DNA from: Dickeya aquatica
GTDB lineage: Bacteria; Pseudomonadota; Gammaproteobacteria; Enterobacterales; Enterobacteriaceae
Direction of reading: 5' to 3'
DNA: 64,000 nucleotides
Assembly (NCBI RefSeq): GCF_900095885.1
Contig: NZ_LT615367.1
Span: 620,001 to 684,000 of the forward strand
In this document: in pieces, positions 31,507-49,015 of the stretch
Numbering within the stretch: position 1 is the stretch's first letter
How the letters are laid out: each line of letters opens with the position of its first letter
Position numbers and translations under genes: made by a program
The notes under the pieces: generated by a model
Databases searched by the model: none
Told to the model about the DNA's origin: nothing
The model's input: only the letters and a program-made list of their open reading frames with translations

Positions 31507-31517
31507 GGATCTTCACC

Positions 31518-32648
31518 ATGAATGGACTAAAAACCCCGAATTCACTTGCGTGGAACACGTTGCACAGCGAACCGCTCGCAACCCAGTTGGCAATGTTTCG
31601 CCAAGCCAGTGCACAGATCAATACGCAGGATGTTAAATCCGGTTTTCGCGCCTTCGCGGCCGATCTGCTGGCGCGCGGTTTGATCGACATGTCCGATTAC
31701 GTCGCGATTTTTGGTGGTACGGCGCTGCATTATCTGACGCCGAATGCGACTGGATCATTTTGCGATATGCGCACCGGTGCTGAAGCGACAATATTGGCGG
31801 GCATTTATAGCCGTGCGAAATATGGCGGAGTGAGCGAGATACGCTATCTTGCACGGTGCGTTATCGACTACCTTGTCGAAGAACTGGAAGACACCTCTTC
31901 ATCATGGTCAGGGTTATTTTGCCAGGCTAAAGAGGAAGGGGAGAGTGTCGTGATGATGACAACGGGCTGGCGTAATGTGCCTTCCACGGCCAATGTACTC
32001 TACGACATCGTGGTTGAGGAAATTAATCTCACGTTGGCGCATAAAGGATTACCCACCATTATCAACGTCAAACTGCCCAGGATTGCGCCGCCGTGTGAAA
32101 ATTATGCCAGCCTCAGCCAGGCCGAGCGCGATCGGGTCAATCTTGTGCAGGATCATGTGATTCCAGCGGAGAATTTTTACCGCTGGAGCGGCGTGCATGT
32201 CATTTTCGGAGATGACGTACTGGTGACTGGGGCAACGGCGGACAAAGTGTTGTATGAATCGCTGTGTAACGGTGCCCGGTCATTTCGTGCCATTTACCCT
32301 GTGGCGCTAGATCCCCGGGTGGCATTAACCGATGCGTCGGTGGAGGATCGCCTGAACAGCGTGAGCGTGAAACAGCATCTGGATGAAACTGTAGCGCAAC
32401 TGCTCTCTACGCCGGGCTATCAGCCTATTTTGCGTGCGTTGCGTCTGTTGTTTGGCGAAGACAACCGGGAGAGTTTACCGGCTTTCCTGCCAAATGTGCC
32501 GGTACTGACATGGCTTAATCTGTACAAATCGGCATTAAATAATGAGTTTTTGGCTCAGCCTGCATGTGCTCCATCGCTGGTGATGCTTAAAGCACATCTA
32601 ACGCAGAACGGGCTGCTGAGTGCGAAAGGTAAGGTGCTGGTGAAATGA
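31518..32648 (+). CDS. Phosphoribosyltransferase-like protein
   Basis: The 376-residue protein has a clear type I PRTase PRPP loop, GDDVLVTGAT (residues ~231-240), preceded by a KLPR...NYASLSQAERDRV segment. Similar segments appear in PRTase-like proteins of the tellurite-resistance-associated biosynthetic clusters. Residues ~60-110 (FGGTALHYL; GAEATILAGIYSRAKYGG) and the C-terminal 100 residues are unassigned. It may make or break an N-glycosidic bond with PRPP. It starts 11 bp after the PHP gene and overlaps the next by four bases. The family identity rests on one motif and context. Confidence 0.6.
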   Translation: MNGLKTPNSLAWNTLHSEPLATQLAMFRQASAQINTQDVKSGFRAFAADLLARGLIDMSDYVAIFGGTALHYLTPNATGSFCDMRTGAEATILAGIYSRAKYGGVSEIRYLARCVIDYLVEELEDTSSSWSGLFCQAKEEGESVVMMTTGWRNVPSTANVLYDIVVEEINLTLAHKGLPTIINVKLPRIAPPCENYASLSQAERDRVNLVQDHVIPAENFYRWSGVHVIFGDDVLVTGATADKVLYESLCNGARSFRAIYPVALDPRVALTDASVEDRLNSVSVKQHLDETVAQLLSTPGYQPILRALRLLFGEDNRESLPAFLPNVPVLTWLNLYKSALNNEFLAQPACAPSLVMLKAHLTQNGLLSAKGKVLVK

Positions 32649-33436
32649 CCCTCGACACTATCCATTACGTCAGTTACTGGGAAAACGCTCCGGGTCAGAC
32701 CATGTCGGCTTATGTTGCCCTGGCACTGGTTTCTATGCATAGAGCGTTGGGCGATCGTTTTCTTCTGCTTACGCCGCGAACAGTAAGCGAGTACATCGAT
32801 GCTGATATCATGAATAAAACTTGGGCCTTTGAACCGCTGACCTTTACGCTGGCGAACGGCATTGAAGCAATTGTGGCGAAAAGCGATTTCATTCGTATGG
32901 CGTTTGTGCATCGCTGGGGCGGGGCATGGTTGGATGCGGATACGTTGCTGTTTAGGGATCCGACTGTTGAGTTATTTCCGACAGGGCTGAGCCATAAATT
33001 GCACTGGCATAGCGAGTGTATTTTCGCGTCCCTGCCGGGAAACCCCATACTTGCGCAAGCCTTAGCTATAGGGCTTGAGAGCGAGAATCATGCTTGGGGT
33101 AATCCTGGGAGAATCAAAAATATCATTGCCCAGACTGCCGATGCTGCCATCCCGATTGGTGGGAGGGTCATCGATCCCGGATACCGTCCTCTTTACAACT
33201 TTGCTGGTTGCGAGGTGATGCGTCGCACCGATATTGCCGTCGGGGCGTTTTTGATTAACGACGTGGCCATTCTCAAACTTTACAACACCTATTTCCGGCG
33301 TACCGAAGCCCGGAGAGAAACCGTGGCTGAATTCCTGGCGGGTGGCTCGCTGCTGGCAAGACTGTTTTTGCATATTGAGGCGAATGCGGATTACTGGGTT
33401 GATGAAAGTGACAAATTGATAGCCTCAGTAGCCTGA
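32645..33436 (+). CDS. DXD glycosyltransferase (GT32 / capsule-synthesis type)
   Basis: The 263-residue protein has the Gly_transf_sug signature: YWENAPGQTMSAYV near the N-terminus, IVAKSDFIRMAFVHRWGGAW, then LDADT with the metal-binding DXD (Asp97-Asp99). This family uses a nucleotide-sugar donor and keeps the anomeric configuration. It has no membrane anchor. Its start overlaps the PRTase-like stop (ATGA), so it is the last gene of the plus-strand cluster. Its last 46 bp overlap the convergent GT9 gene, so read-through would give antisense RNA. Confidence 0.82.
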   Translation: MTLDTIHYVSYWENAPGQTMSAYVALALVSMHRALGDRFLLLTPRTVSEYIDADIMNKTWAFEPLTFTLANGIEAIVAKSDFIRMAFVHRWGGAWLDADTLLFRDPTVELFPTGLSHKLHWHSECIFASLPGNPILAQALAIGLESENHAWGNPGRIKNIIAQTADAAIPIGGRVIDPGYRPLYNFAGCEVMRRTDIAVGAFLINDVAILKLYNTYFRRTEARRETVAEFLAGGSLLARLFLHIEANADYWVDESDKLIASVA

Positions 33437-34932
33437 GTACCGCTTTCGCCCAGTACGATAGCCTCAGCGGGTAAGTGGAGTCGACAATGCGTGGCACCAT
33501 TGAGGTTAATGCGCGGCGCGATTGCTTCGTGAATGGTCGGCGTTCGGCGGTGAGGCGAGCCGTGGGCAATATACAGCCATGCGGGGATGCGTTCAGGTAA
33601 ATGGCTGAATTCAAGTTCAATACGCAATAGATCGAATATCTCGGTGGTGCGTCCACTGGGTGTCCAAGCCAACGGCGCGGTACGGTGATCAGGCCGCACG
33701 ACTGCGACAGGAACGCTGAATTCAAGGTTGATCGTCCCGGCATAACAGCCTGCAACTTCAGGAAATTTTTCGCAGATTAAGGGCAGTTGTCGCGCCAAAG
33801 TGCCCGTCGCTACCCCTAGCCCGGAGATGATTCTGGCGTTAAGCGACATGCTGTTTTTCGCTTCTGCTGGCAGCGTTAAGAGAGTCTGCAATGCGTTCAT
33901 TAATGATGTTAGCGAAAAAGCATCCATATTTTTTTTGCCCGTACGGCGGAGTGTGTCTGGCTGTTGCTCGCTGTAGATCACCTGTGTAAAAGGTGATCGA
34001 GGTGGCAGCCATGGGTTGTGTTGGCCTGTAATCAACGGGTAGATCGCCACCAGCTTCGCCTTCAGGCCGACAGCCATATGCACAATGGCTGTATCCACAC
34101 TCACAACCGTTTGGGCACGGCAAATATATCCTGCAACCTTTTCGGGCGTTAGCCCATCGCGCAAGACTGCCACATTGTCGCGTGCAACTGCGTTTTCCAG
34201 ATGCTGTGCACTGTGCAGTGTTGAAGGGCTGCAAAGAATGCCCACGGAATGGCTAGGAAACTCGTCGGTGATGGCTTGTAGAGCTGCGGTTGCCCGGGAA
34301 GGTGATAGCCCCTTGTCTTTTCGGCTGGCATAAGGATTAAAAAGTATTTGAGGGGAAAGAGTCGCAGGCGGGAGCTCGGCAGGCAACGGCACAATGTACT
34401 GGGTGTCGATTACCTTCGCGCCCAGATCTTGCAAAATATACTGATACTGCTCCACGATATTGAGCGTGTTTGCAGCAAAACCCATTTTACGATTCACACA
34501 GCGCAGCGAATCATCAAGCGAATAGAGACTCGCCGGGCGGAGTAACCGCATAAAAACGATTTCGGCAGGTTGCAGTCGTCCAACCAGATGAACAACGACA
34601 TCGACATTACTTAGCCGGTTCACCAATCTGCGTAGTTCACCAAGCCCTGGATGCGGATTCGTAACGATGACTTCATCCACACCGAAGGTGTTGGTATGCA
34701 TTTCAGCTAACTCGTTAACTGTAAGTACAGTCAATCGGGCATTGAGCTTACGTGATTCGCGAAAAAAGAAAGAAGATACGATGGCATCGCCCAATTTTGC
34801 ATCCCAGCGAAGCAGAAGAATATGCATTTTTTCACCGGGGACTTTCGTGGGCAGAGGTTTGTCCGCCAGAAGGCGAAATATCAACCTGGAAACCGCTTTG
34901 CGTAAAATCTGTAAACTCAACAATGTGCTCAC
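33391..34932 (-). CDS. GT9 glycosyltransferase fused to a DUF120 (CTP-dependent riboflavin kinase-like) domain
   Basis: Residues ~36-355 are a heptosyltransferase-type GT9 domain: MHILLLRWDAKLGDAI start, FNPYASRKDKGLSP, and SVDTAIVHMAVGL (278-290). Residues ~365-495 match the archaeal CTP-dependent riboflavin kinase family DUF120: ARIISGLGVATG, then CYAGTINLEF (397-405), then HEAIAPRINL (468-477), in the same order and spacing as archaeal RibK. A fusion with a GT9 enzyme is not one I know. The GTG start at 34932 gives a basic N-terminal helix found in GT9 proteins; Met36 is an alternative. It is transcribed toward the radical SAM cluster. Confidence 0.75.
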   Translation of the reverse strand: MSTLLSLQILRKAVSRLIFRLLADKPLPTKVPGEKMHILLLRWDAKLGDAIVSSFFFRESRKLNARLTVLTVNELAEMHTNTFGVDEVIVTNPHPGLGELRRLVNRLSNVDVVVHLVGRLQPAEIVFMRLLRPASLYSLDDSLRCVNRKMGFAANTLNIVEQYQYILQDLGAKVIDTQYIVPLPAELPPATLSPQILFNPYASRKDKGLSPSRATAALQAITDEFPSHSVGILCSPSTLHSAQHLENAVARDNVAVLRDGLTPEKVAGYICRAQTVVSVDTAIVHMAVGLKAKLVAIYPLITGQHNPWLPPRSPFTQVIYSEQQPDTLRRTGKKNMDAFSLTSLMNALQTLLTLPAEAKNSMSLNARIISGLGVATGTLARQLPLICEKFPEVAGCYAGTINLEFSVPVAVVRPDHRTAPLAWTPSGRTTEIFDLLRIELEFSHLPERIPAWLYIAHGSPHRRTPTIHEAIAPRINLNGATHCRLHLPAEAIVLGESGTQATEAINLSLSSTQ

Positions 34933-35240: not shown

Positions 35241-38200
35241 TTACTTGACCACTTCCATCAGCTTACCGAAGCTATCCACTACGTCATACTTCACGTTTTC
35301 TGGAGCAAACTTCTTGTTGATCTCATCGAAGAACTTACGGGCACATTTAATCTTGGTAGCTTCAATAGGCCGTAAATCCAGTGACGACATCGAGCCCTTG
35401 GTCTCAGCAACGAAATACACATGCTTGACCGAGCCATCTTTGAAGGAAATGGCCCAATCGGGGTTGTAATCGCCGACAGGGGTTGGGATCAGAAAACCAC
35501 GTGGCAACTTGGCATATACCACCACATCCTTGCTGGTATCCAGCTCTTCGACAAACTTACGCTCAATCGCAGAGTCGGTAAGCACGTAATCATAGATGTG
35601 ATTTTGCAATTTATTCCCGGCCTTACTGAGATCCTGTTTGCTCTGTCCCGTGGTAAAAATGTCCAAATCAAACTTGTCTTCTAGCGTGTCATAGGCCAGA
35701 TGCTCGATAATGACATTGGCCTTTTGTTCGTTGACCAGGCGAATGGCTTCGGCAATGAAGCTTTCCGGGTTGCTCTTGAATTGTGCGAAGACGTCAGCAT
35801 TGAGGCCTTTAAGAATTTCGGCAACAGTTCGTCTTGTAAGCAGAGTCCCCTCTGATAACTTGCCAATCAGATCGTACTGCACAGCGGAGAGGATGGAGGC
35901 GTTGTGCGATTCTGTTTCGGTAACTTTCAGCTCGAAGGCATTACCCTTTTTGAGGCCATCGTAAGTTGCCGTATCAGTCTGCTCGCCACGGTGAATGGTG
36001 TATTGTAACGGCGTCACTCGTAACCCAGCATTGTTGTCATTGAGCGCCTTGATCGCATTGTTCACTAGCTCAACATCATCAAACAACACGCTGTAAGTAG
36101 CCTTGCGATTGATTCGCCCCCACAGCGCCTTGAATTCCTGCTTTTCAAAGTTGGCATTGGTCTGCAGTCTTTTGGGCTTGCGACCATCTTCTACCTGCAT
36201 GAGTTGGCTTTCGCTGAATACGCTATCAATCAGCTGGAATACCTGCTCTGCATAGGACTGCAGCTCGTCCGGCAATGCCTCCAGCGAGCCGTCTTTTTTA
36301 GCTTGATGGTACTTCTCCGTGATATTGCGCTTCTTATCGACGTAGCCGTTCTGGATCAGATAAAACTCGATGTCCGTGGCCTGGTCGTCCGATACCGTAA
36401 TCGGGCCTTCCTTCGTGTTCAGCATCTTGCCCGTAAAGTAGGCCTTGTCCGCCACACGCGGACGAGCTGACAAGGACTCGCTAATGTCCTTCTGCAAGGC
36501 GGTCACGAAGTCCTTGTAACTTTCGCTGGCCACGACTGTCAGTACGTTAATGTCATGAACAATGGACGGGTGATCCATGCGATCACCATTTTGATTAACG
36601 GACAAACGCAGGCCACGCCCGACCTCTTGGCGGCGTGAAATGGTGTTATCACTATGCTTGAGCGTGCAGATAACAAACACGTTCGGGTTATCCCAACCCT
36701 CACGCAAGGCCGAGTGTGAGAAGATAAAACGCACCGGCTCAGCTAGCGATAATAACCGTTCCTTGTCTTTGAGGATCAGATCATAAGCATCTACGTCATC
36801 CGACAAGCCTGCATTTTCACCGCGCGCAGCGACTTTGGGATCGGTGAGGCGCTTGCTCTTCTTGTCGATGGAAAAGTAGCCGTTGTGCGTCTTATCGGCC
36901 GCAATGCGGCGTAGATATTTAGCATAAGGGGTATCCCCCTCCATAAACCCATTATCAAACGCTTCTTGAAGGTGCTTGGCGTACTCTTCTTCAAAGATTT
37001 TTGCGTACTCTCCCTTTTCATCAGCAGCGGAGTAGTCCCGGTACCTGGCTACTTCGTCGATAAAGAACAATGAGAGAACCTTAACACCTTTATCGAAGAG
37101 CTCCATCTCCTTATCAAAGTGCGCCTTGATCGTCTCACGGATCTGAATACGGCGCAGCGCTATCTCGGAAATATCACCAGTCGCATCACCCACCGTCAGT
37201 TCTACGCCATTGGTAAAGCTCAAGGTGTCCGTATTGGCATTGATATCCGATACCACAAACCCATCGCGGTATTGATCCAGCTCATTCGATAGCACAAACA
37301 GATTGTCACCCTTGCCCAGTTTTCGAGTGACGCGCTTGATGTTGCCACCGCTGAGTTTCTGTTCGAACTCCACAACCGCGACTGGCGGTTTTTTGTTTGA
37401 GATTTCGATGGCTTGTAAATAGAGATAGGCATTGGTTCCCGCCAGTCCCTTCACCGAGATACCGCGCACCTCAATCTTCTTCACCAGCTTCTGGTTGTAA
37501 GCATCGAGCGCATCCAGGCGGTGGATCTTGTTATGTGTGGTCTTGTGGGTAGCGGAATAGCGCAACACCATCAACGGGTTGAAATTAGCCAAGGAATCCA
37601 GCGTTTTTCCCCCCTCCATCCGCTGCGGCTCATCGAGGATCAAGATGGGCCGGTTGGCGCTGATCACATCGATCGGGCGACGTGACTGAAAATCATCGAG
37701 CGCTTCATAGATGCGGCGGTTATCTTTGCCGGTGGCGTTAAACGCTTGTACGTTGATCACCATGACATTGATACCGGCATCGGAGGAGAAGCTCTCCAGA
37801 TGGTGCAACTGCTTAGAGTTGTAAATAAAGAAGCGCGCCTTTTTGTGGTAGGTCTCCAGAAAGTGCTCGGCCGTGATTTCCAGCGACTTGGCCACGCCTT
37901 CGCGGATGGCAATGCTCGGCACCACTATAACGAACTTGCTCCAGCCGTACTGTTTGTTCAACTCGAAGATCGTCTTTATGTAGCAATAGGTCTTGCCAGT
38001 ACCCGTTTCCATCTCGATATCAAGATTTAGCCTGGCGACCGTGGTCTTGGCCAAGCTCTCCGACAACGGCAGATTTTTCTGGCGCTGCGCTTGTTGGATA
38101 TTATCAAGCAAAGCAACCTCACTGAGGGTTAGCTCAACATTCTTAAAACCGGTATCTACTGCAAACAGATCACCCATGCCGTTCTTGGTATTACCAGGGT

Positions 38201-38312
38201 CAAGACGATAGCTCATGGCCGCATCAGAGGCCGGTGGCTGCCCCTGAAAAATATCGACGACCGCCTGCACGGCCGCAGCCTGATAGGGCTGATGTTTGAA
38301 TTTAAGTTTCAT
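35241..38312 (-). CDS. Type III restriction enzyme, Res subunit
   Basis: The 1023-residue protein is the ATP-dependent helicase/nuclease subunit that cuts DNA together with Mod. An SF2 helicase core carries METGTGKT (101-108), DEPQRM (227-232) and SATH (253-256). [20 protein letters not shown] and the [20 protein letters not shown] box make motifs V and VI. The C-terminal end has a PD-(D/E)xK nuclease (GDYNPDWAI, then FVAETKG). ATP-driven cleavage between two head-to-head sites is the family mechanism. It starts 10 bp after mod and is the last gene of the seven-gene operon. Confidence 0.9.
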
Positions 38313-38322
38313 TGCGCGCCCC

Positions 38323-40341
38323 TCAGATACATTTCACTTCGGTAGCGGGCGACAAGAGCTTGAAAATCTGCTCGACGTTGATCTTGATCGCGCTGTTCTT
38401 GTAGCCCGCGTCGCGGAACACCACGCGCAGCGGCTGATGCTTGGCCAGTTCCTTCACAAAGGCTTCGTCGATACTACCGCTGGCGTCGAAGCAGGCGGCC
38501 AGGGCATTGCCATCGACAAAGAACACATCTTTACCTTGAATAGACTGTTTGTTGATGGGCAGGGCTAGATCGACGCCCCAATCCAGCATCACTTGGAACA
38601 GCAGGTCTTCAGGAGTGCGGTCGGGCTTGATGTTGTCAACGAACAGGTCGAGTTTGGCTTTGTCGAGCGCATCGGGCGTGTAGTAGACGTCGGCCAAGTT
38701 GGACGTATCTACCCGCAAAGAACGGAATCCAACGTCGGCTCTCTGACCTGACGGTTCAGCGCTTGAAGCAATCGACGCACCCGCTTTGCAGATTCGCGCC
38801 CGAGAGAGTTCCGCAATGGATTTATAGCCCTCTTTTGCTGCTTCTGACTTAGGATCAGGTACTTCATCAAGCTGCACCAAAATGAACCGGCGGTTTCCTC
38901 CATCTTCCGAATTGGCTTGCATAACGGCATGCGCCGTCGTCGCTGAGCCCGCAAAAAAATCGAGCACAACAGCGTCGCGAGTATTATTCGCCCACTTAAT
39001 CAACTGCTTAATTAGACGTACGGGTTTCTTGCCATTCGCATATGCAATACCACCTTCCTTGGCAACGTTCCCCATGTCTTGGTGGAAACCTTTCCAAAGA
39101 TCTCCCCGTATGACAGTTCTACCAAATCTAGGTTTGTAGTCATCAGACATTCGGAAGTTGAGGGAAAGTGGCATCAAGGCTTGCAGCGAGCCGTTAGCAA
39201 GTGTCGTTAGAAAATAGGTTCTATGGTCGACCTCAAAAGACTCCCATCGACCAATTTGGGTGGATTTCCCAGCTGCAGATACTGGCGCTCGATCGATACG
39301 TGCAATTTTCGCGAGATTCTTCGTGATAAAGGATTTGGCTGAATCAGATACGGCCAACAGCTTGTCCATATTCTTGATGCTAAATGAACCTCGCTCCACT
39401 AGTTCGAAGCGTCGAATGTCAGCCCCAACCTCCTTGTCCGCGATTAGTTGCTCTGCAAGGCTACCCAACGTTCCGTCTTCGTAAAGCCAAGCTGTGTAGT
39501 GCGTATCGTACGAGTCGATACCGTCTAAAAGAGGGGTGTGTGGGGTGCTATCAAATGCAGCCGATTTTCTATATACATGGACGAATTCAACGTTTTTTAC
39601 AATCGTTCCTTGTTGTGCATTAACTGTTTTTGGCCCGGAGGTTGTCGACATTTCCACGGCAATTGTGTCAATGAAGTTTCCCTCCCCAAAAATCTCGTCA
39701 AGGATATGCTTCAGATTCGCAGATTCATTGTCATCAATTGAAAGAAATATAACCCCGTCATCAGCTAGAAGGCTCCTCGCGAGCTTTAGCCGTGGGTAAA
39801 TCATGCTCAACCAGTCAGAATGGAAACGTCCATTTGACTCGCTGTTGGCAACAAGTCTGTTTCCATGAGTGTCTTTTTGATTCGAACGAAGAAGATATTC
39901 CTCTGAGTTCTCAGCGAAGTCGTCTTCGTAAATAAAATCACTGCCCGTGTTGTATGGTGGATCGACATAGATCAACTTGACCTTGCCGAGATAGGTTTCT
40001 TGCAACAACTTGAGCGCCTCAAGGTTATCGCCTTCGATAAACAGATTCTTCGTAGTATCGAATTCAACGCTCTCCTCTCGCACCGGGCGCAGCGTTTTAG
40101 CAATCGGCGCGTTGGCCGTAAGCAAGGCTTCACGTTTGCCCGGCCAGTTCAGGTGGTAGCGTTCCTGTGGTCCCTCGACAATCGAATCTGCCAGTTCCTG
40201 CCGTAATTGGTCAAAATCTACCGCCAGTTTCACTGTACCGTCCTCGCCCTTGGCTTCGGTGACGCAGCCAGGAAACAGATCGCGAATGCGGGCGATGTTG
40301 TCCTGCGTGAGATTGGGTGAATGCATTTTTAGCTTTTCCAT
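38323..40341 (-). CDS. Type III DNA methyltransferase, Mod subunit
   Basis: Mod recognises the site and adds a methyl group to adenine N6, and it guides Res. This is a beta-class N6 MTase: VDPPYNT catalytic motif (about residues 126-132 of the 672-residue product) comes before the SAM motif [12 protein letters not shown] near the middle, and the variable target-recognition region lies between them. AGGAGG nine bases before ATG 40341 fixes the start; an in-frame ATG 24 bases upstream has no site. It lies 59 bp after the DUF2130 gene. The recognition sequence cannot be read from the protein. Confidence 0.9.
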
Positions 40342-40400
40342 GTTCTTTTCCTCCTGACGCCGCACTATTGCGCAGTGTCCTAATTCTTTCTGGGCTGGCT

Positions 40401-41816
40401 TTATTCGGCGTCAGAATTGTTTTGGTGTTTGAGCTCGGCAAATTTGGCGGCCATTGTTGGGTTGCCGCGGGTGAGCCGCTTGACTGTCAGGTCTTCAGCT
40501 TTATCGTTGGCAAGCCGTAGATTGTTAGCCGACTTGTGCAGGGCTTCTTTGGTCTTTTCAAGATCCTTGATGGCTTCGTCGATGCGCTTGACCGCTTCTT
40601 CAAACCCATCTGAAGCCAAACGCCAGTTGCGACCGAATGCAGTCTTGAAGTCATCGAGCTGGGTTTCAAATTGGGTGATGTCGATGTTCTGCGCCTTCAC
40701 CAGCGCCAACTCGGACTTGTATTGAAGTGACTTCATCGCCGCATTGCGTAGCAGCGTGATGATGGGGATGAAGAACTGTGGCCGAACGACGTACATCTTC
40801 GGGTAGCGGTGAAACACGTCAACGATCCCGGCGTTGTAAAGCTCACTGTCGGGCTCCAGCAGGGATACCAGCACGGCGTATTCGCAGCCTTTTTCGGTGC
40901 GGTCCTTGTCGAGCTCCTTGAAGAAGTCTTCGTTTTTCTTCTTGGTGGCTGTTTCGTCACCTTCATTCTTCATCTCGAACATGATCGAGACGATCTCGGT
41001 GCCTGCATCATCCATATCCCGGAAGATGTAGTCGCCCTTGCTGCCGGTACGCACGTCGTTGTCTTTTTCGAAGTAGGCCTTTGGGAATGCGGTGGCCCGG
41101 AGACGGTTAAACTCAATCTCGCAATGCTGCTCCAGGGTTTCCCCAATCATCTTGGTCGACAGCCGTGCCTTCATGTCCCGAAGACGCACAATCTCACCAT
41201 CGCGATCCTTGAGCTGTGTTTCGTATTTATCTTTGAGTGCAGTCTCGGCAAGTTGCTTTTCCAGTGCAGCTCGATCTAGTCCGCTCTTGAGTTCGTCACG
41301 TTCCTTCGTCACCACGCTGACCGCTTCGGTGAGCGCGAGCTTTTGGGCAACTTCGCCCGCTGCAAGCTTGGCCTGCAGACGCTGAATCTCCGCATCCTTG
41401 GTGGCCTCGGCTTGCTGTAGATCACTTAATCGCTTCGCCTCGGCCAGTTGAGCTTTAGTTTCATTCTCTTGCTGTGCTTTTTCCAGTGCGTTCGCCAGCG
41501 CATCGCGATCTTTTTCTACCGCGCTCAGCGCCTCACTGACAGCAAGTTTTTGCGCAACCTCTCCTGCATCCAACCTGGCTTTTAATGCCTGGATTTCGGC
41601 ATCCTTTGCAGAAGCAGCCTTCTGCAATTCGCTGGTAACCTTAGCTTGAGCCAGTTCGACCGCGTTTTGCTTGTCCCTTTCGGCCAGCTCAAGGCGTTCA
41701 TGTAGCTGCTTCTCAAAGTCAGCATCGCGAACCTGTTTAAGAATGTCTGCGTAACCAGCTTCATCAATCTTGAAAGCCTTGCCGCAATGGGGGCAGATGA
41801 TTTCATGCATAGTCAT
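40401..41816 (-). CDS. DUF2130 coiled-coil protein, nuclease-fold
   Basis: The 471-residue protein begins with a CPHC knuckle (Cys8, Cys11). A long coiled coil (~residues 30-215) includes a 69-residue duplication ([12 protein letters not shown]... and [12 protein letters not shown]...). The DUF2130 domain is a restriction-endonuclease-like fold: GSKGDYIF with Asp262, then FEMKNE with Glu281 and Lys283, a D...ExK site. DUF2130 proteins are often near Mod or SbcC-like genes. The ATG overlaps the OLD stop (ATGA). It could act as a scaffold and nuclease within the operon; this is inference. Confidence 0.78.
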
Positions 41817-43693
41817 TTTCCTTCTACCTTGGCCAAAATTTGCTGGAGCATCTCTGGCACCGCCCCTGCGGCTTTGAGTGTCGCCGTGCGGTATGCGAGT
41901 TGATTCTTCGAGAGACTGATACCTGTGGCAACCTCGATTTCACTGCAGGCGGCTAGCCACTCAGGCCAGTTGGCTACGAGAAATGATTCCAGATGGTCTT
42001 CAAAAATGGCGACTGTGTCGCCGACGACAGCTTCCGGAAAATCCTCTTCAGTAATGCCGAAGTATTTCAGAGTGGTCCGGTTTTCCCGGGCGTTTTTTGC
42101 AAGTTCTTCATCGATCTTGTTTTGCTGTTTTCCTTTGGCTTTTGCTCGTGCCGCACATGCTCTGTCAGCATCGAAAAGCGCATAAACCGGGATACCGAGT
42201 GCGGACAGGATGGCATGGACAAGAGGGATCGACGTCTTGCCTCCGACTGGGACAATGGAAATGCCAGCGGCTTCAAGCGCACCAAGAGATATTTTGTCGC
42301 CTATACCGTGGAACACCGATGACTCGGTGGTACCCTCCACAAGAAAAGCGCGATGGGCAAAGAGGGCTACAGCCAGCTGATCTGAAACGATGCCATCTAA
42401 CTGACGTTCGACAACATCAGTGTTCACTATCTGGTGCAGTCTGGTCTTTACATCATCAACGGAGGCAAAGTGGATAGTCACAGCCGGAGTCTCTCCAGAT
42501 GATCGCGTCAATCGCCTGACTTGATCAAAATGGCGGGCCTCAAGAAAATAAGGGCTGTGTGTCGCATACGTCACCTGGATACACTTGTCGGGATCTTCGA
42601 CAAGTGAGCGGAGCACTTTTGCAAACGCCTGTGCCTGAATCGGGTGCTGAAAGAGTTCTGGCTCCTCGATTGCCAAGCAGATGACCCCGTTGGCTGATGC
42701 AGAGCCGGACTGTGCCAAGAGCTGGAGCGCCGAGATCAAAATCGTCCGCTGAAAACCATGCCCCTGTCGCTCTACCGCTGTTTCGGTTGTGCCATCGAGC
42801 ACGGCTACTTCGAACGTGGTCTTGGGGGCTTTGAGCTCCACCTCTGCCGGGGCAACAGTGACTGCCCGACCCGGTGAATAGGACGCAACGACCGCGTTAA
42901 GCTGAGTCGTCATGACATCAAGTTGTGCTTTGAATTTCTCGTCGTACACCTTTTGCTGTTGTGTTCGTGATTCCTCGACGATCTTCGCAATCTCTTCATC
43001 AGCTGAAGCACGATCAACCGAACGCTCAAGAATGCGTCCAATGATGCTCGACTTTCCGTCGATTGATTCTTCACTTGCGCGAAGGTCTGCAGTCACCAGC
43101 ACGAAATCGAAAAGGCCACTCATCTTGCCGCCGCTGTTGAAACCGAAAAAGTTGGTCTGCAATGATTCGGGGGCGTCTACGAGTAGTTCTGTATGTGATG
43201 CTTCCCAAGTAGTCATTGCCTGGTCAATGGCTGTACCGGTAGTGGCTGTAGGAAGCTCCAGCTCTGGGCGACTAGTTCTGAGATTGGTATAAAGCTCCCT
43301 CTTCGCCGCTACACCATTTGCAGTTTTGATTGCGTTGAACTCTGGGAATCCCTTTGCGTTTGCAGAGAGCACATCGGTGCCGTCAGCCGCACGGCGCTTC
43401 CACGCCGTGAATGTAGCTGCGCCCTCTGGAGTGTACTTACCAAGCGCCTCCCGATCCTTTTCGGTGAGATCTGCGAACGTGACTTGCACCTCGATGTCTT
43501 CGTTAGTCTCTCCAAAAGAGCAGTCTTTCTCTGTCAGCGAGCCGGGCTTGCCGTTAAAGAACCAATCGAGTGCATGTAGCACTGTCGACTTGCCAGCGCC
43601 ATTGGGCCCTATGAACGTCGTAACGGAGTCGAAGGGAATCGTGACGTCTTTGAGTGCCCGGAAGTTCTTGATGCCAACGGATTGAATCTTCAT
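41813..43693 (-). CDS. OLD-family ATPase with TOPRIM nuclease domain
   Basis: The 626-residue protein has an SMC/ABC-type ATPase: GPNGAGKST Walker A (29-37), a coiled middle, a Q-x-HGFQRT-like signature, and [11 protein letters not shown] (Walker B/D-loop, 341-351). The C-terminal TOPRIM half has FLVEGTTE (Glu453) and the FDAD metal motif (508-510). This is the OLD/GajA/AriA architecture, known in phage-defence nucleases such as Gabija and in PARIS sensors. No UvrD-like GajB partner is adjacent; a larger SNF2 helicase and DUF4391 are instead. It begins 30 bp after DUF4391 with an AAGG site. Confidence 0.85.
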
Positions 43694-43723
43694 TTCAGTT
43701 TTATTCCTTTACACCTGTTGTTA

Positions 43724-44413
43724 TCAATGTTTGAGCTCTTCCAGTTCAACTTTCAACATCCGCAGTTCGGCGTTGATCTCTACCTTGCGGTTGAATTGTT
43801 TTTCTTTTGCAAGTCTACTTGCGGCTTTCTCAACTTCACGCCGCTTGGCTGCAACCAGTTCGACGCGTGCGACCAAGCCCGCGAGACTTTCTTGTGGGCG
43901 CGCGGGAGTGGGGATCAGACGGTGAAGCATCTGCTCATACAAGCCGCCCAAGTTGAGTGCCAAGGGCATGGCAGCGCGCTCACAGTCACTCGGCAACCAG
44001 ACTGTTGCAAAGTAGTCACTCAAGACCCAACGACTGGCGTCTGACTCATTGGGGCGTTTGTATGCAGCGATTACCTGTGTTCGGCCATCAAAGCTTAGCT
44101 CGAAGATGATGGGAAACGGCACCGCGCCATCAATGCAACGCAAAACGTCTATATTCAGCTCAGATGTCTTAAGCTGGATCGAGAAAATCTGAAGCTCTGG
44201 TACTCCCGGCCTGGCGGGCAGGTTGATCGTTTCCGGGGCCAACTTGTATTGCCAGACGATCTGCTCCACCTGCTCGACGAACAAGTCCTTCAACCTTGTG
44301 TTGGCACCGCTGTGTTCGTAGATTTTGTTCTTTGGCAGGGTGCGGCCAAAAGCGGCTTGCTTCGGGTAGTTGATGAATGCGGCGTTCGACTCGAATCGGG
44401 CGTGCAAACTCAT
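43724..44413 (-). CDS. DUF4391 domain protein
   Basis: The 229-residue protein matches DUF4391: PKNKIYEHSGANTRLKDLFV, then EQVEQIVWQYKLAPETINLP, and a C-terminal coiled-coil tail (KRREVEKAASRLAKEKQFNR). DUF4391 genes are typically next to SNF2-type helicases in defence loci, but the biochemical role is unknown. GGAGG lies seven bases before the ATG, which overlaps the helicase stop by four bases (ATGA), so the two proteins are probably made in fixed ratio. Confidence 0.78.
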   Translation of the reverse strand: MSLHARFESNAAFINYPKQAAFGRTLPKNKIYEHSGANTRLKDLFVEQVEQIVWQYKLAPETINLPARPGVPELQIFSIQLKTSELNIDVLRCIDGAVPFPIIFELSFDGRTQVIAAYKRPNESDASRWVLSDYFATVWLPSDCERAAMPLALNLGGLYEQMLHRLIPTPARPQESLAGLVARVELVAAKRREVEKAASRLAKEKQFNRKVEINAELRMLKVELEELKH

Positions 44414-47400
44414 CCGGCCTCCTGAATCACGATGAGGGTGATCAGTTCGAAGTCGTCCAGCCCGGCGATGGTATTGACCAGCGCGGTGGTTTTACCGCCG
44501 CTGAACAGGCTGTCCAGATCCTTCTCTTCCTTCACCTTAATCATTGAGCGGATGGCCTTGCCAAGCAGATCCGAATACACCTGCATCTTGCGGCCATCGG
44601 CCGTTTCCTCGTTGAATAGGAGACAGGCATCTGTAATAGGCTGGGCTTGTCCCTTGCAGCAACTGCGCACCAGATCCAGCAAACGCTTGACCTCGGTATG
44701 ATCGTGAATGACTTCACCTTCGCGGTTGATGTAGACGAGGTAGTAAGGGTGCAGACGGTTGTGCTGGCTGACATTGACGCTCGGATTGCGGTTGCGCAGC
44801 GTGAAGATCACGCCCGGGCGCAGGCCCAACTCCGGCTTGGCAGGCACCACAGTATGTATGCCGCTTGGCACGTTGCTCAATTCGCCATTGGCTTTCACAT
44901 AGTTGAGCAAGTCCATTCGGAAGTCATTGAGCCCGAGATCAGTGATCGACACGCCAGTCTTCAGGTCTTCCAGCTCGATCACTTCCTCTTGCAAACGTCG
45001 CAATTGCTCTTTGCGATAAGACACGTCGTTGGCTTGGGCGCTCAACACGTTGTCATCGCCGGTGGCCGTGACGTCGGCAATCATCATCCGGTTCTCAACC
45101 CGTTCCTTCAGGTTGATGTATTCGTCCAGCGAGATGTCTGGCCAGTAGTTGACCAGTTGGATGCTGCTGTTGGGCGAACCGATACGATCCACGCGGCCGA
45201 AGCGCTGGATGATGCGCACGGGATTCCAGTGGATGTCGTAGTTGATGAGGTAGTCGCAGTCCTGCAGGTTCTGGCCTTCAGAGATACAATCGGTGCCGAT
45301 CAATAAGTCAATTTCTGCCGCCTCATTCGGCAGTACAATGGTTTTCTCCTTCGAGTGCGGCGAGAAGAGGGTGAGAAGTTCCTGAAAGTCGTAGCTCTTC
45401 TTGAGCGTGGACTTCGGCGCACCTTTGCCAGTGACTTTCGCGCTGTGCAAGGTCTGTGTGGCCAGCAATTCCGGAGCCAAATTGGCATACAGATAGTCAG
45501 CGGTGTCGGCGAAGGCGGTAAAGATTAGCACCTTCTTGTTGCCGGGATTCAGCGGCGCTGCGATCTTCTCCAGAACCAGTGCCTTCAGATGCTGCAGTTT
45601 GGCATCATCGGCAGCCTTGATCTTGTTCATCGACGTCAGCAAGGCATCAATGATTTCCAGATCGACCTTCAGCTCATGCTCCCATGAAGGCAAGTCCATA
45701 TCGGCGAGGCTGATTTTGACCTTGCCGCCGATCTCGCTTTCGCTAATGTTAGGCAAGTCGTCGTCTGCGTCGAGGTTCTCTAACTGGTCGGTCAGGTCAT
45801 TGATTCTGCTGTCAATGCCACTGAGGTCGCCAGTTTGATTGAAAGCGCTGATCTTGCCCAGCGTATTCGTGTGGTTCGAACGCAGGGACTGGAGTGTCAA
45901 GCGGAAGGACTCAATCGAGCTTTCTAGGCGCTTGAGCAAGTTGGTCGTCATCAATGCCTGCAGACTCTTTTCGCGGTCGACTTGCTTAAGCTTGCCTTTG
46001 CCTGCGACCTGAGTGTCATACATCTCCTCGTACTTCTTGAGCCGACTGGGCAGAATGTAGCTGATCGGGGCGTAAACGGCGAGCTTGAGCAAAGACAACT
46101 GCTCGAAGATCTCGTTGAAGCTCATCACATCCGTTCGCTGCGTGAGCGGACAGTGGAACGACAAGGGTTTGCGGCGCTCGGGGAATTGACCGATTTCCTT
46201 GGTGTCGTAGAAGGTCTGGATATGCTTGCGCGAGCGTGCGATGGTGACGCTGTCGAGCAATTCGAAGAAATCGAAGTCCAACGAATCCAAGATGGCCCGC
46301 GCTGTGCGATCTTCCGATGGAAGCTTTGCCCATGCATTGAAGCTGGCCTGCGCACCACGGAAAATGTCCTCTACCGTCTTGCCGGTGCGCAGCTTCTTGC
46401 TGAGGTTCTCGGAGTCGCCCTCGTAGGCCAGTGCTAGTTGGTTGCGCAGGTCATTGAAGCGGTTGTTCACCGGGGTGGCTGAAAGCATCAGCACCTTGGT
46501 TTTCACGCCCTCCTTGATGACCTTGTTCATCAGCTTCTGGTAGCGGGTTTCCTTGTCCTTGTAGGCGTCATTGTTGCGGAAGTTGTGCGACTCGTCGATG
46601 ACGACGAGGTCGTAGTTGCCCCAGTTGATGCGATTCAGCGGTGTGCCGAACGACTCACCGCCCGTACGGCTGAGGTCGGTATGACAAAGCACGTCGTAGT
46701 TGAACCGGTCGCGAGCAAATATGTTGGTCTTGAGGTTGCGGCTGTAGTTTAGCCAGTTGTCTGCCAGCTTCTTGGGGCATAACACCAGAACTGACTTGTT
46801 GCGCAGTTCGTAATACTTTACCACGGCCAGCGCGGTGAAAGTCTTGCCCAAGCCCACGCTGTCGGCCAGGATGCAGCCGCTGTAGCTCTCAAGTTTGTTG
46901 ATGATCCCGGTGGCAGCATCTTTCTGGTAGTTGAAGAGTTTGTTCCAGATGAGCGTGTCTTGATAGCCCGTGCGGTCGTTCGGCAGGACATCCTCGTTGA
47001 TGTCGTCCAGAAACTCATTGAAGATATTGTAGAGCATCAGGAAGTAGATGCTCTCGGGCGAGTTTTCCTGGTAGACGGACGCAATATGGTCGCAGATCTG
47101 CGCCGTTACATCCTCCAGCTTATCGCGGTCTTGCCAGATCTGGTTAAACAGACTGAGATAGGCCGCCGTAAACGTCGGCTCGTCCATCTTGTTGACGAGG
47201 TTGGAGACCGCGTTGCCCTGCTGGTAGCCGAGATCGACGGCGGTAAAGCCGTGCAGTGGCATGTAGGCAGTCTCAACGGCAGCAGCCTGAACACAAGCAA
47301 ACTGCTGCATTGGTGCTTTGCTGCGATTGGACTTAAATGTTGCCTTGCGCCGCATCCAATCCGCGCACTCTTTTGCAATTGCGCGCTGGGTCAGTTTGTT

Positions 47401-47688
47401 GCGCAGCTGAATTTCGAATTCACTCCCATACAAACTCCGTTCGCGGTCAGCCTTCGGGATGTGGAATTCTTTGCGTTCCTTGCGAATCTTATCGGTAACC
47501 TCGTTAGCGGTAAACGTCGGCGAGGTAAAGATGAATTGCAGATCGTCGATTTTTTCCAGCTCTGCTTTGAGCGCTTCGAACGCGTACATCGAAAAGCAGG
47601 AGGCGGCGATCTTCAGGCGAGTACCGGGTTTGAGCGTCTGCTTTAGGTCGTCTCCGAGCAGGCGGTTGATATTGTCGATCAGTTCCAT
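44410..47688 (-). CDS. SNF2-type helicase with N-terminal PLD-like domain
   Basis: The 1092-residue protein has a SF2/SNF2 motor: SVGLGKT (277-283), VIDESHNF (363-370), LSATPVNNRF (402-411), then FTAFADTADYL and the DRIGS/QRFGRVDRIG box (motifs V-VI). Residues ~1-100 (RLKIAASCFSMYAFEALKAE; FIFTSPTF) resemble the N-terminal phospholipase D-like half found in helicases of this group, but I see no HKD catalytic motif. The motor probably tracks or remodels DNA or protein-DNA complexes. Start: ATG 47688 shares one base with the WYL stop; a TTG three bases upstream is possible. Confidence 0.85.
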   Translation of the reverse strand: MELIDNINRLLGDDLKQTLKPGTRLKIAASCFSMYAFEALKAELEKIDDLQFIFTSPTFTANEVTDKIRKERKEFHIPKADRERSLYGSEFEIQLRNKLTQRAIAKECADWMRRKATFKSNRSKAPMQQFACVQAAAVETAYMPLHGFTAVDLGYQQGNAVSNLVNKMDEPTFTAAYLSLFNQIWQDRDKLEDVTAQICDHIASVYQENSPESIYFLMLYNIFNEFLDDINEDVLPNDRTGYQDTLIWNKLFNYQKDAATGIINKLESYSGCILADSVGLGKTFTALAVVKYYELRNKSVLVLCPKKLADNWLNYSRNLKTNIFARDRFNYDVLCHTDLSRTGGESFGTPLNRINWGNYDLVVIDESHNFRNNDAYKDKETRYQKLMNKVIKEGVKTKVLMLSATPVNNRFNDLRNQLALAYEGDSENLSKKLRTGKTVEDIFRGAQASFNAWAKLPSEDRTARAILDSLDFDFFELLDSVTIARSRKHIQTFYDTKEIGQFPERRKPLSFHCPLTQRTDVMSFNEIFEQLSLLKLAVYAPISYILPSRLKKYEEMYDTQVAGKGKLKQVDREKSLQALMTTNLLKRLESSIESFRLTLQSLRSNHTNTLGKISAFNQTGDLSGIDSRINDLTDQLENLDADDDLPNISESEIGGKVKISLADMDLPSWEHELKVDLEIIDALLTSMNKIKAADDAKLQHLKALVLEKIAAPLNPGNKKVLIFTAFADTADYLYANLAPELLATQTLHSAKVTGKGAPKSTLKKSYDFQELLTLFSPHSKEKTIVLPNEAAEIDLLIGTDCISEGQNLQDCDYLINYDIHWNPVRIIQRFGRVDRIGSPNSSIQLVNYWPDISLDEYINLKERVENRMMIADVTATGDDNVLSAQANDVSYRKEQLRRLQEEVIELEDLKTGVSITDLGLNDFRMDLLNYVKANGELSNVPSGIHTVVPAKPELGLRPGVIFTLRNRNPSVNVSQHNRLHPYYLVYINREGEVIHDHTEVKRLLDLVRSCCKGQAQPITDACLLFNEETADGRKMQVYSDLLGKAIRSMIKVKEEKDLDSLFSGGKTTALVNTIAGLDDFELITLIVIQEAG

Positions 47689-48593
47689 CAAGAGTCAGCC
47701 TTTGTAGCGGTGCTATAGCCTGGTGCCAGTAAGGCGTTTTTCACGCCGTAAATCGCGAGATGATCTTTGAGCCATAATCGGTACTCCGGTCCACGAAGAC
47801 AATGATTGGGTGAGCAGTCCACCCGCCAGCGCAGCAACATATAGCCTGCTACCGCCGCGCGAACGCGCATCCTGATCGAGCCATCGGTCATCCCGTAGTC
47901 CATCTTGATGATCTCGGGGCGCTCAACGCTCGGGTGCGGCACGAAATCCAGCTCGACGATGCGCGTCCACTGAATGTCGTTATCCGGTTGTTCGTTGGCC
48001 TGTGGAGCCTCGATGAGCAATGTTGGCGCTTCGATGCGGGTGACGACGAAATCCCGAAACTCTCCACTTTTGCGATCAAAGGCCCGGACGTGCCAGCGCA
48101 GTCCGGTATCTACCAAGGCAAAGGGCACAATGACCCGCTCGGACTCGCCGCTGCTCATCGAATGGTAGCGGATGGCGACAGGTCGCTTGGTGTGGATAGC
48201 TCGGCAAATCGCGGCTAACACATCCATTTTGGGGATGCTCAGGGCTGCGGGAGATTCGCATGGTAGCAGCGCCTGCATTGGGCCGCTCACTCCATCGCCA
48301 AAGCCGAGAGCCAGCGCCGACAGAACACGCTGCGATGCGTGCTCAAACAACGGAGAGAACGCTTGCCCGATGCGATAGATCTTGTTGCTACCATCGAAGG
48401 TGATGTTATGCGGTGCAATTTCCCGGTATAAGGCCAGATCGCGTGTGGCTCCAGCCGGAGCCACACCGAAGCGCTCAATCAGATCTGGGCGACCGATCTC
48501 ACCGAAGAAGTAGAGCCGAAAATCGATGTAGGCGAGCCGCTCGCGCTGGACCAAACTCAAGCCCTCAAGCCGCTTAGAAGGGGAACTAGGCAT
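47688..48593 (-). CDS. WYL-domain transcriptional regulator (BrxR/CapW-like)
   Basis: The 301-residue protein has an N-terminal winged helix (DFRLYFFGEIGRPDLIERFG), a dimer region, a WYL domain (RPVAIRYHSMSSGESERVIV; RWHVRAFD) and a C-terminal domain (WCX) ending LKDHLAIYG. BrxR and CapW, which repress BREX and CBASS, have the same layout. It is the first gene of the operon; the stop shares a base with the helicase start. Repression of its own operon, relieved by a ligand or phage infection, is likely but not shown. The promoter should lie in 48594-48700. Confidence 0.83.
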   Translation of the reverse strand: MPSSPSKRLEGLSLVQRERLAYIDFRLYFFGEIGRPDLIERFGVAPAGATRDLALYREIAPHNITFDGSNKIYRIGQAFSPLFEHASQRVLSALALGFGDGVSGPMQALLPCESPAALSIPKMDVLAAICRAIHTKRPVAIRYHSMSSGESERVIVPFALVDTGLRWHVRAFDRKSGEFRDFVVTRIEAPTLLIEAPQANEQPDNDIQWTRIVELDFVPHPSVERPEIIKMDYGMTDGSIRMRVRAAVAGYMLLRWRVDCSPNHCLRGPEYRLWLKDHLAIYGVKNALLAPGYSTATKADS

Positions 48594-49015
48594 GAATCAT
48601 CACTATAGGGGAAAATGAAAATTGAATACGGTAATCCATAAAGTGCCATGGTTGTAATCAAATTGATGATAATCATGCATTAATACTTATGTAACAGCAA
48701 GAAATGATGTCTCAAACGTAGACAGTCATCGTATTGGCTGATTTCTCTATACCGCTAGATTGATGCCATCCAACTATAAAACCTTGCTGCCAATGCTCTA
48801 TAGCCCCTCAGGCAATTTGCCCTTATCCGCTGTTTTGGTCTGCGGGATGCCAGAATAACCTAACGACTCAAGGACTGGGATCACAGGAGGCAGTGGTTTG
48901 ACGCTTACCTCAATTCAAATAATTTTCAGATATATATCATTCTTCTGAACATACCCGATTAACGGCAGAATCTCACGATTCTGCCGTTTTTGTATTATTT
49001 TTCAGAGGAGTAGTA
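48594..49015 (-). other. 422-bp intergenic region between defence operon and YeeP-like gene
   Basis: It should hold the WYL operon promoter (minus) and the promoter of the GTPase gene (plus). No gene is seen. A hairpin (CGGCAGAATC TCAC GATTCTGCCG, followed by TTTTT) at 48963-48991 lies 24 bp before the GTPase start. Confidence 0.5.
48961..48991 (+). terminator. Terminator-like hairpin before the GTPase gene
   Basis: AACGGCAGAATC, loop TCAC, GATTCTGCCGTT, then T-run. No gene on this strand ends here, so it may be a leftover terminator or an attenuator. Confidence 0.6.

Follow-up and report, generated by a model that had tools for sequence, protein, structure and literature searches.

Seven genes follow one another on the minus strand of a 64,000-nucleotide stretch of Dickeya aquatica DNA (contig NZ_LT615367.1, positions 620,001 to 684,000; hereafter, the window), and they raise the question of whether such a tightly packed operon is one defence machine or a smaller machine that carries passengers. 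An earlier note on this DNA, made from the sequence alone, had read all seven as a single composite system, in which the methyltransferase Mod of a type III restriction-modification (R-M) pair marks self-DNA and the accompanying helicase and nucleases supply a second response. Our analysis divides the operon differently. Quite probably, it is a modular defence locus derived from type III R-M, with a four-gene chassis (HEL, DUF4391, Mod and Res) and swappable, mostly independent effectors held in slots, OLD and DUF2130 serving as a backup. The modular anatomy of the locus is well supported, and the mechanism that we attach to it is inferred. The features on which the argument rests are the following, in window coordinates:

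47688..48593, minus strand: WYL regulator, optional first gene (301 amino acids (aa), PF13280)
44410..47691, minus strand: HEL, SNF2-type helicase/translocase, core gene 1 (1093 aa, PF00176 and PF00271)
43724..44413, minus strand: DUF4391, core gene 2 (229 aa, PF14335, 3.6e-58)
41813..43693, minus strand: OLD-family ATPase with fused TOPRIM, cargo gene 1 (626 aa, PF13175 and PF20469)
40401..41816, minus strand: DUF2130, cargo gene 2 (471 aa, PF09903, 9.6e-91)
38323..40365, minus strand: Mod, type III DNA methyltransferase, core gene 3 (680 aa, PF01555)
35241..38312, minus strand: Res, type III restriction subunit, core gene 4 (1023 aa, PF04851 and PF19778)
40366..43723, minus strand: slot A, the swappable stretch from the end of DUF4391 to the start of Mod, delimited by breaks in BLAST alignments

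The open reading frames (ORFs) run from 48593 down to 35241 in the order WYL, HEL, DUF4391, OLD, DUF2130, Mod, Res. Domain searches bore out each gene name given in the earlier note, and the close coupling that it described is real: 4-bp overlaps join WYL to HEL, HEL to DUF4391 and OLD to DUF2130, and the remaining gaps measure 30 bp (DUF4391/OLD), 35 bp (DUF2130/Mod) and 10 bp (Mod/Res). These figures take Mod from its first GTG, which yields the 680-aa protein; a start at the ATG eight codons downstream widens the DUF2130/Mod gap to 59 bp. Promoter-like and terminator-like sites within the stretch are at or below chance (4 against 10.0 and 14 against 15.3 expected, respectively), so the operon structure rests on the overlaps and the spacing. 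The stretch is no assembly artefact, because the same seven genes occur in E. coli H5 and H6 (91.1% DNA identity over 92% of the stretch) and on two plasmids, from Enterobacter asburiae and Citrobacter freundii (93.4% over 92%); the host genome itself is a single 4.5-Mb contig. Since the operon is 91–93% identical to its E. coli copies and the rpoD genes of host and E. coli share 84% identity, the operon evidently moves between hosts.

HEL, DUF4391, Mod and Res stay together while slot genes are replaced

HEL, DUF4391, Mod and Res stay together over several phyla, the genes in the slots are replaced much faster than this core, and the pair that occupies slot A of the window also lives elsewhere. 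Our counts refer to 94 loci, namely the window and 93 relatives. Among named genomes, the best 80 of 573 HEL relatives by alignment were used (61–94% identity), and these 80 come from Pseudomonadota, Actinomycetota, Acidobacteriota, Verrucomicrobiota, Thermodesulfobacteriota, Spirochaetota and other phyla. By hidden Markov model searches, 91 of the 94 loci have DUF4391, 90 have Mod, 86 have Res and 85 have all four core genes, some of the genes counted in these 85 being split or cut by the end of a stretch. Seven loci (L026, L029, L052, L053, L054, L068 and L082) end too early for the core to be judged, the DUF4391 of L090 was found by tblastn, and L041 has an N-terminal Mod match alone and, by tblastn, no Res within its stretch. 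Altogether, HEL-DUF4391-Mod-Res is present in 86 of the 87 judged loci. Two plasmids added as a check, Aeromonas media pE31A and one from Endozoicomonas, carry all four genes. Within the order, PF14335 was found in 14 of 295 genomes; leaving the window aside, 12 of the 13 loci have HEL in front of DUF4391 and Mod and Res behind it, and the 13th ends with its contig.

The core genes also covary. For the 72 loci with all four near full length, the correlations between protein distances are 0.94 for HEL-RES, 0.87 for HEL-DUF4391 and 0.80 for DUF4391-RES, followed by 0.73 for MOD-RES, 0.72 for HEL-MOD and 0.62 for DUF4391-MOD, against a permutation maximum of 0.34. L040 (Desulfovibrionaceae) and L084 (Spirochaetota) share Res, HEL and DUF4391 proteins that are 82%, 80% and 70% identical, and such similar cores in different phyla indicate that the core genes travel together.

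The exchange of slot A can be followed at base level among closely similar operons. E. coli H6 and the Enterobacter asburiae plasmid hold the full seven genes, whereas slot A of E. coli PCP06171, of E. coli 0H26 and of a Raoultella plasmid is occupied by a 900-aa gene instead of OLD and DUF2130 (0H26 has, in addition, an IS30 in Mod); the protein from PCP06171 is 67% identical to the UvrD-like protein of locus L017. Over the WYL-HEL-DUF4391 stretch, the window is 91–93% identical to PCP06171, the Raoultella plasmid and CFT073. The alignment to all three breaks off 13 nt short of the DUF4391 end, at operon-oriented position 4857, and restarts at 8233–8241, 4–12 nt into Mod. In CFT073 and two similar strains (L202, L209 and L210), slot A contains no full cargo gene; the CFT073 sequence aligns with the start and the end of the PCP06171 UvrD-like gene but lacks the central part, which identifies slot A of CFT073 as a relic of that gene. 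Separately, we note that the four core genes of these three strains are annotated without a pseudogene flag.

Counting same-strand ORFs of at least 150 aa at the junctions of the 85 four-gene loci, we found cargo between HEL and DUF4391 in 2, between DUF4391 and Mod (slot A) in 13 and between Mod and Res (slot B) in 36; one slot or the other is filled in 42 of these loci and both in 7, and the 13 filled A slots hold nine kinds of cargo. Among pairs of loci with Res proteins at least 75% identical and at least one slot filled, the same cargo recurs in 0 of 38 pairs for slot A and in 9 of 88 for slot B, the pairs overlapping and hence not independent. Cargo turnover is faster than that of the core. 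Over all 94 loci, the cargo genes form 24 clusters, of which one representative each was searched, with the following counts:

Schlafen AlbA_2 protein, 16
HEC-01A and HEC-01B, 6 each
RhuM/PDC-S05, 5
Bro-N/PDC-S13, 4
YhcG/PDC-S02, 3
UvrD-like protein of about 900 aa, 3
DUF2130, 2, the window included
PDC-S46, 2, and HEC-07-like, 2
Unnamed pair, in L065 and L079
Single cargos named by their match: PDC-M61B, HEC-04, SoFic, AbiD, SIR2, HerA, DUF2779 and OLD
Between HEL and DUF4391: two GmrSD-type proteins
Single unnamed cargos: three

Sixteen of the 24 clusters, including that of the OLD gene in the window, match a PADLOC model at E<=1e-20; the L065/L079 pair, the 162-aa protein of L068 and the 352-aa protein of L108 were outside this search, and the Schlafen, UvrD-like, DUF2779, DUF2130 and L088 313-aa representatives gave no PADLOC match at that threshold. 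The sole other DUF2130 cargo in the 94 loci lies in slot A of L043 (14987–16396), where it stands without OLD; L036, a close Res relative of L043 (92%), has a HEC-07-like gene in the same slot.

Two further observations concern the places where cargo sits. L173, a Mod-Res locus without HEL and DUF4391, has Mod and Res separated by two genes (305 and 308 aa), and slot B may therefore be general to type III R-M. Genes of the DUF262 (GmrSD) type immediately follow Res on two enterobacterial plasmids (L203, 2333–5585; L204, 2360–5585) and immediately precede HEL on Aeromonas media pE31A (L222, 15634–17508); the ends of the operon are perhaps further cargo sites.

The OLD and DUF2130 pair itself was found in 0 of the 93 other loci, four of which (L026, L029, L052 and L053) end before slot A. 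A megablast search of 5426 E. coli genomes detected HEL-DUF4391 in 54 and OLD-DUF2130 in 3, two of the latter being seven-gene loci and the third, ET245, lying outside the 54. In ET245, the pair sits 100 bp behind a type I hsdR gene, and tblastn of all seven proteins against the 27-kb stretch gave matches to OLD and DUF2130 only. Core-free copies also occur in genome G688, close to type VI secretion genes (L220), in genome G1122, two genes behind a NERD-UvrD gene (L221), and on an IMG/VR contig that also encodes an integrase (L217). Over the four stretches, identity to the window is 75–79% for OLD and 77–84% for DUF2130, and none of the other five window proteins was found in them by tblastn. 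On the Aeromonas plasmid pHX3 (L206, 3071–12014), OLD precedes Mod, HEC-01-like genes follow it, and Res comes next; the middle of the DUF2130 gene is missing there.

Each partner is also found alone. OLD relatives without DUF2130 occur in Citricoccus (45% identity, behind a type ISP gene), Rhodococcus (47%, behind an Abi gene and 5.6 kb from type ISP genes), Paraburkholderia (75%, behind an Eco57I-like methylase gene and an unnamed gene) and Cupriavidus CH34 (76%, mixed neighbours). Close OLD relatives are patchy in distribution: at E<=1e-100, the window is alone among 321 genomes of the class, with one more relative in 246 genomes of the family and one more in 398 of the phylum; at E<=1e-20, a protein search yielded at least 2094 relatives among 8000 candidates scored. 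DUF2130 matches were found in 32 of the 321 class genomes, 29 of them above the cut-off, and of 20 contexts examined, one has an adjacent OLD-like gene, in reversed order. Because DUF2130 without OLD is the commoner state, the pair is a union of two independent families.

The single composite system proposed earlier thus survives in part. HEL, DUF4391, Mod and Res do form one conserved unit that goes beyond Mod-Res, as the 86 of 87 judged loci attest; OLD and DUF2130 are not integral to it, given that the pair is absent from all 93 other loci, that similar cores hold a UvrD-like gene or its relic, that the pair occurs in four stretches without the core and that DUF2130 stands alone in L043. 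The earlier note had itself named what would tell against it, namely Mod-Res and the helicase/DUF4391/OLD/DUF2130 block occurring independently far more often than together; this is what we see for OLD and DUF2130, and not for the helicase and DUF4391. The search for co-conservation of all seven genes that it suggested returned five records with the full set, and WYL proved optional, being near HEL in 9 of 94 loci and once on the opposite strand.

The seven proteins and named defence systems

The motifs sought in HEL, OLD, Mod and Res, taken in their customary meanings, are all present in the window, among them LVEG/DAD in TOPRIM, DPPY in Mod, GTGKT/DEPQ in Res and a C-terminal PD...ExK at residue 951 of Res. 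Comparison with PADLOC-DB 2.0.0 was made at the level of protein models, with the best 25 matches considered for three of the seven proteins. The best model for HEL is C3a139, labelled 'HKD+Snf2' (421 bits). Helicase motifs are present in 93 of 93 HEL proteins, and HxKx4D within the first 250 residues in just 1 of the 93; we therefore set the HKD part of the label aside and do not term HEL a nuclease. Mod scores 690 bits against MTase_III, with DPPY in 86 of 86 Mod proteins and a strict motif-I pattern in 40 of 86. Its middle part does not align between otherwise similar enterobacterial operons (BLAST) and is probably the target recognition region, as would be expected of a specificity region. 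Res scores 1108 bits against REase_III, the sole solved relative found is EcoP15I Res (4zcf, 2.9e-77), and PD...ExK is present in 72 of 74 near-full-length Res proteins, that of the window included.

For DUF4391, AlphaFold gave a model with a predicted local distance difference test (pLDDT) score of 90, consisting of an alpha/beta domain and a C-terminal helical hairpin. Foldseek returned no match with E <= 0.001, and the VIA-align rows fall mostly on the hairpin; the unmatched model yields no function, nor is it evidence for a new fold. DUF2130 combines an N-terminal CxxC, a long coiled coil and a predicted PD-(D/E)XK nuclease domain. D262, E281 and K283 are invariant in the 19 proteins aligned, and C8/C11 are kept in at least 90%; the D262...E281-x-K283 arrangement reads as PD-(D/E)XK, that is, a predicted nuclease. 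The AlphaFold model of DUF2130 (pLDDT 57, and below 50 in the nuclease part) is too poor for a structure search. Profiles of DUF4391 and DUF2130 each gave two weak matches to PDB sequences, none of them informative. OLD combines an ABC ATPase and an OLD-like TOPRIM in one chain, both above the cut-off, as in OLD family nucleases; its PADLOC scores are 195 bits for Old (best), 159 for AriA and 100 for GajA, and its best solved relative is 6p74, of the OLD family (5.8e-26).

The earlier note knew of no named system with the full gene set, and our scan agrees: DUF4391 and DUF2130 match no PADLOC-DB 2.0.0 protein model. Type III R-M systems methylate one strand of an asymmetric site and need two unmethylated sites for cleavage. 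Mod has the N6/N4 methyltransferase features of such systems (PF01555, MTase_III, DPPY), Res has a superfamily 2 (SF2) motor and a C-terminal PD-(D/E)XK, and both match type III models of the EcoP15I type over their length with motifs intact; unlike type III R-M, the window operon adds two conserved upstream genes, for the SNF2 helicase and DUF4391, and two cargo slots. A partial match to Hma, in which likewise a helicase, a methylase and an ATPase occur together, had been considered in the earlier note and did not hold up. HmaB is a 5-methylcytosine (m5C) methyltransferase (PMC8565338), whereas Mod is of the N6/N4 type, with PF01555 as its sole Pfam match, and HEL scores 84 bits against HmaA compared with 421 against C3a139.

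The operon shares with DISARM an SNF2 helicase accompanying a DNA methylase, but HEL reaches 141.1 bits against DrmD, for which the curated cut-off is 610, DrmA, DrmB and DrmC are the best match of none of the seven proteins, and a type III Res is present. With BREX, it has in common a methylase, an SF2 helicase, a WYL regulator, as with BrxR, and embedded effectors; yet none of the seven proteins has a PglZ, BrxC/PglY or BrxL domain in its full Pfam or NCBIfam list. OLD resembles GajA of Gabija, and OLD itself, in its fused TOPRIM, but its neighbour is DUF2130 rather than the UvrD-like GajB, and the GajA score of 100 bits compares with 195 for Old. PARIS also contains an OLD ATPase, which lacks a TOPRIM of its own and stands beside AriB; in the window, TOPRIM is fused to OLD, the flanking DUF4391 and DUF2130 have no PADLOC match, and the partner, DUF2130, is not AriB.

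OLD and DUF2130 have the properties of an embedded module, as they lie between genes of a host operon, in some copies only, and occur apart from that host as well. Embedded defence genes are reportedly the subject of a 2024 preprint by Payne et al.; like these, the cargo described here sits between genes of an R-M-like operon, and several cargos match HEC or PDC models of PADLOC, whereas the host is HEL-DUF4391-Mod-Res, allele swaps place the borders of slot A closely, and DUF2130 is without a PADLOC model. We found no description of the core as a named unit, or of OLD and DUF2130 as a module, in the literature searched, which does not extend to bioRxiv and most subscription papers and is thus weak evidence of novelty. 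Embedding is a published idea; as far as that literature goes, what may be new is the recognition of the HEL-DUF4391-Mod-Res core and of the OLD and DUF2130 pair as units. TgvAB (PMC11411939) and DarTG2 (PMC12255303) are embedded in type I operons, OLD modules and other nucleases act as backup effectors within BREX loci, and OLD ATPases paired with PD-(D/E)XK nucleases are also reported (both PMC12839542).

Competing readings and a possible mechanism

If the operon is the chassis with slots that we favour, its parts might work as follows. Mod would methylate an asymmetric site, marking self, with the variable middle of the protein setting that site, and Mod-Res would cut DNA with unmethylated sites, by analogy with EcoP15I. 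HEL, with DUF4391 as a putative adaptor, may be an extra DNA translocase acting on DNA flagged by Mod, which would widen restriction past what Mod-Res achieves alone. The slots would hold largely independent effectors that share the WYL-controlled transcription of the operon, and OLD with DUF2130 could serve as a two-nuclease backup against phages that evade or inhibit the core, the OLD ATPase and TOPRIM perhaps sensing DNA ends or a blocked restriction step and DUF2130 contributing the predicted PD-(D/E)XK nuclease.

A bolder version of this reading, to which we give about an even chance, is that the core is a distinct, unnamed type III-derived system that acts as a chassis with a pair of cargo bays and has spread as a unit over Pseudomonadota, Actinomycetota, Acidobacteriota, Verrucomicrobiota, Thermodesulfobacteriota and Spirochaetota, and that OLD and DUF2130 are a new two-nuclease module moving between type III-like operons, type I R-M operons and other sites.

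Possibly, although we consider it doubtful, the cargo is not passive but wired to the core, so that the cassettes act when phage proteins such as Ocr-like mimics block Mod-Res or HEL, as PARIS does for Ocr. The concentration of cargo at two junctions within the operon, with slot B filled in 36 of 85 loci, would fit this arrangement, as would the position of the pair behind a type I operon in ET245, that of the 45% OLD relative behind a type ISP gene in Citricoccus and the OLD modules described as backup effectors inside BREX loci (PMC12839542). At L217 and L220, however, no R-M gene was recognised among the neighbours of the pair that were searched, and the wide variety of cargo kinds sits poorly with a single shared contact.

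Several points weigh against the unity of the core on which our preferred reading depends. Shared host history accounts for part of the covariation, and linkage may be looser beyond the best 80 of 573 HEL relatives. Mod-Res also exists without the two upstream genes: a Res match at E<=1e-50 was found in 28 of the 295 genomes of the order, comprising all 14 with DUF4391 and 14 without PF14335, and in 10 of the latter there is no HEL or DUF4391 near Mod-Res (the contig of L169 ends inside Mod). In a Res tree with 74 core and 10 solo rows, the core/solo label needs three changes, and three of the ten solo rows, which have long branches, are placed in the core clade or next to it, so HEL and DUF4391 were gained or lost more than once. 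The Res of Aeromonas pHX3 is 81% identical to that of the window and is accompanied by both cargo kinds, with no HEL or DUF4391 detected by tblastn in 22 kb. Mod-Res, then, does not always need HEL and DUF4391.

The three label changes, the retention of Mod, cargo and Res by pHX3 and a MOD-HEL covariation (0.72) below that of RES-HEL (0.94), would also suit an old embedded module, HEL with DUF4391, lying upstream of one clade of type III Mod-Res and having a defence activity of its own, outside restriction. We regard this as unlikely, because linkage and gene order are near-absolute: HEL-DUF4391 was found away from Mod in none of the loci opened, which cover part of the 54 E. coli matches, and without Res only at stretch ends or in L041.

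An obligate seven-gene system, in which Mod marks self and helicase, OLD and DUF2130 mount a second response that needs all parts, is very improbable. Five records do keep the seven genes (the window, E. coli H5, E. coli H6 and one plasmid each from Enterobacter asburiae and Citrobacter freundii), H5 and H6, and likewise the two plasmids, looking by their scores like near-copies of each other; against this stand the absence of the pair from all 93 other loci (four of which end before slot A), the UvrD-like gene in slot A of similar cores and the four core-free contexts of the pair. Least credible of all is an ordinary type III R-M system in a defence island with the helicase, DUF4391 and the rest as unrelated neighbours, for which the 10 regions with related Mod-Res alone and the position among presumably CP4-like island genes beside a tRNA gene and rpoD can be cited, and against which weigh the four genes in 86 of 87 judged loci across phyla, the HEL-RES correlation of 0.94 and the fact that, in the search of the order, DUF4391 is present in the genome of every Res of at least 54% identity.

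Under the chassis-and-slots reading, the seven-gene puzzle turns into a testable rule that separates machine genes from cargo genes. As HEL and DUF4391 are uncharacterised yet conserved across phyla, loci annotated as type III R-M may work unlike EcoP15I. The two slots offer a position-based place to look for unknown defence genes, and the natural allele swaps among closely similar enterobacterial copies can be used to ask whether a cargo needs its host system or just shares the promoter.

Setting of the operon

Upstream of WYL, one more feature is of note:

48657..48667, minus strand: candidate operator ATCAA-T-TTGAT, within a conserved block upstream of WYL and touching a -10-like hexamer

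This palindrome is kept in 6 of 6 aligned regions upstream of WYL, matches the window once against 0.04 expected and adjoins a promoter-like site at 48695–48666; it may be an operator.

The operon lies next to island genes (GTPase, DUF932, RadC and DUF4942), which we take to be CP4-like, a tRNA gene and rpoD; an Rfam search of the window gave the tRNA as the sole match. At 29636–33436, the plus strand carries a cluster of genes whose products include one that is radical SAM-like, one with a PHP domain, one of 376 aa that has no Pfam match and one with a weak resemblance to capsular synthesis proteins. A glycosyltransferase family 9 gene adjoins the operon at 33391–34932, and a gene of this family is also found near the operon on the Raoultella plasmid p3045-3 (L204, 603–2177); a longer segment that includes it may have moved together with the operon.

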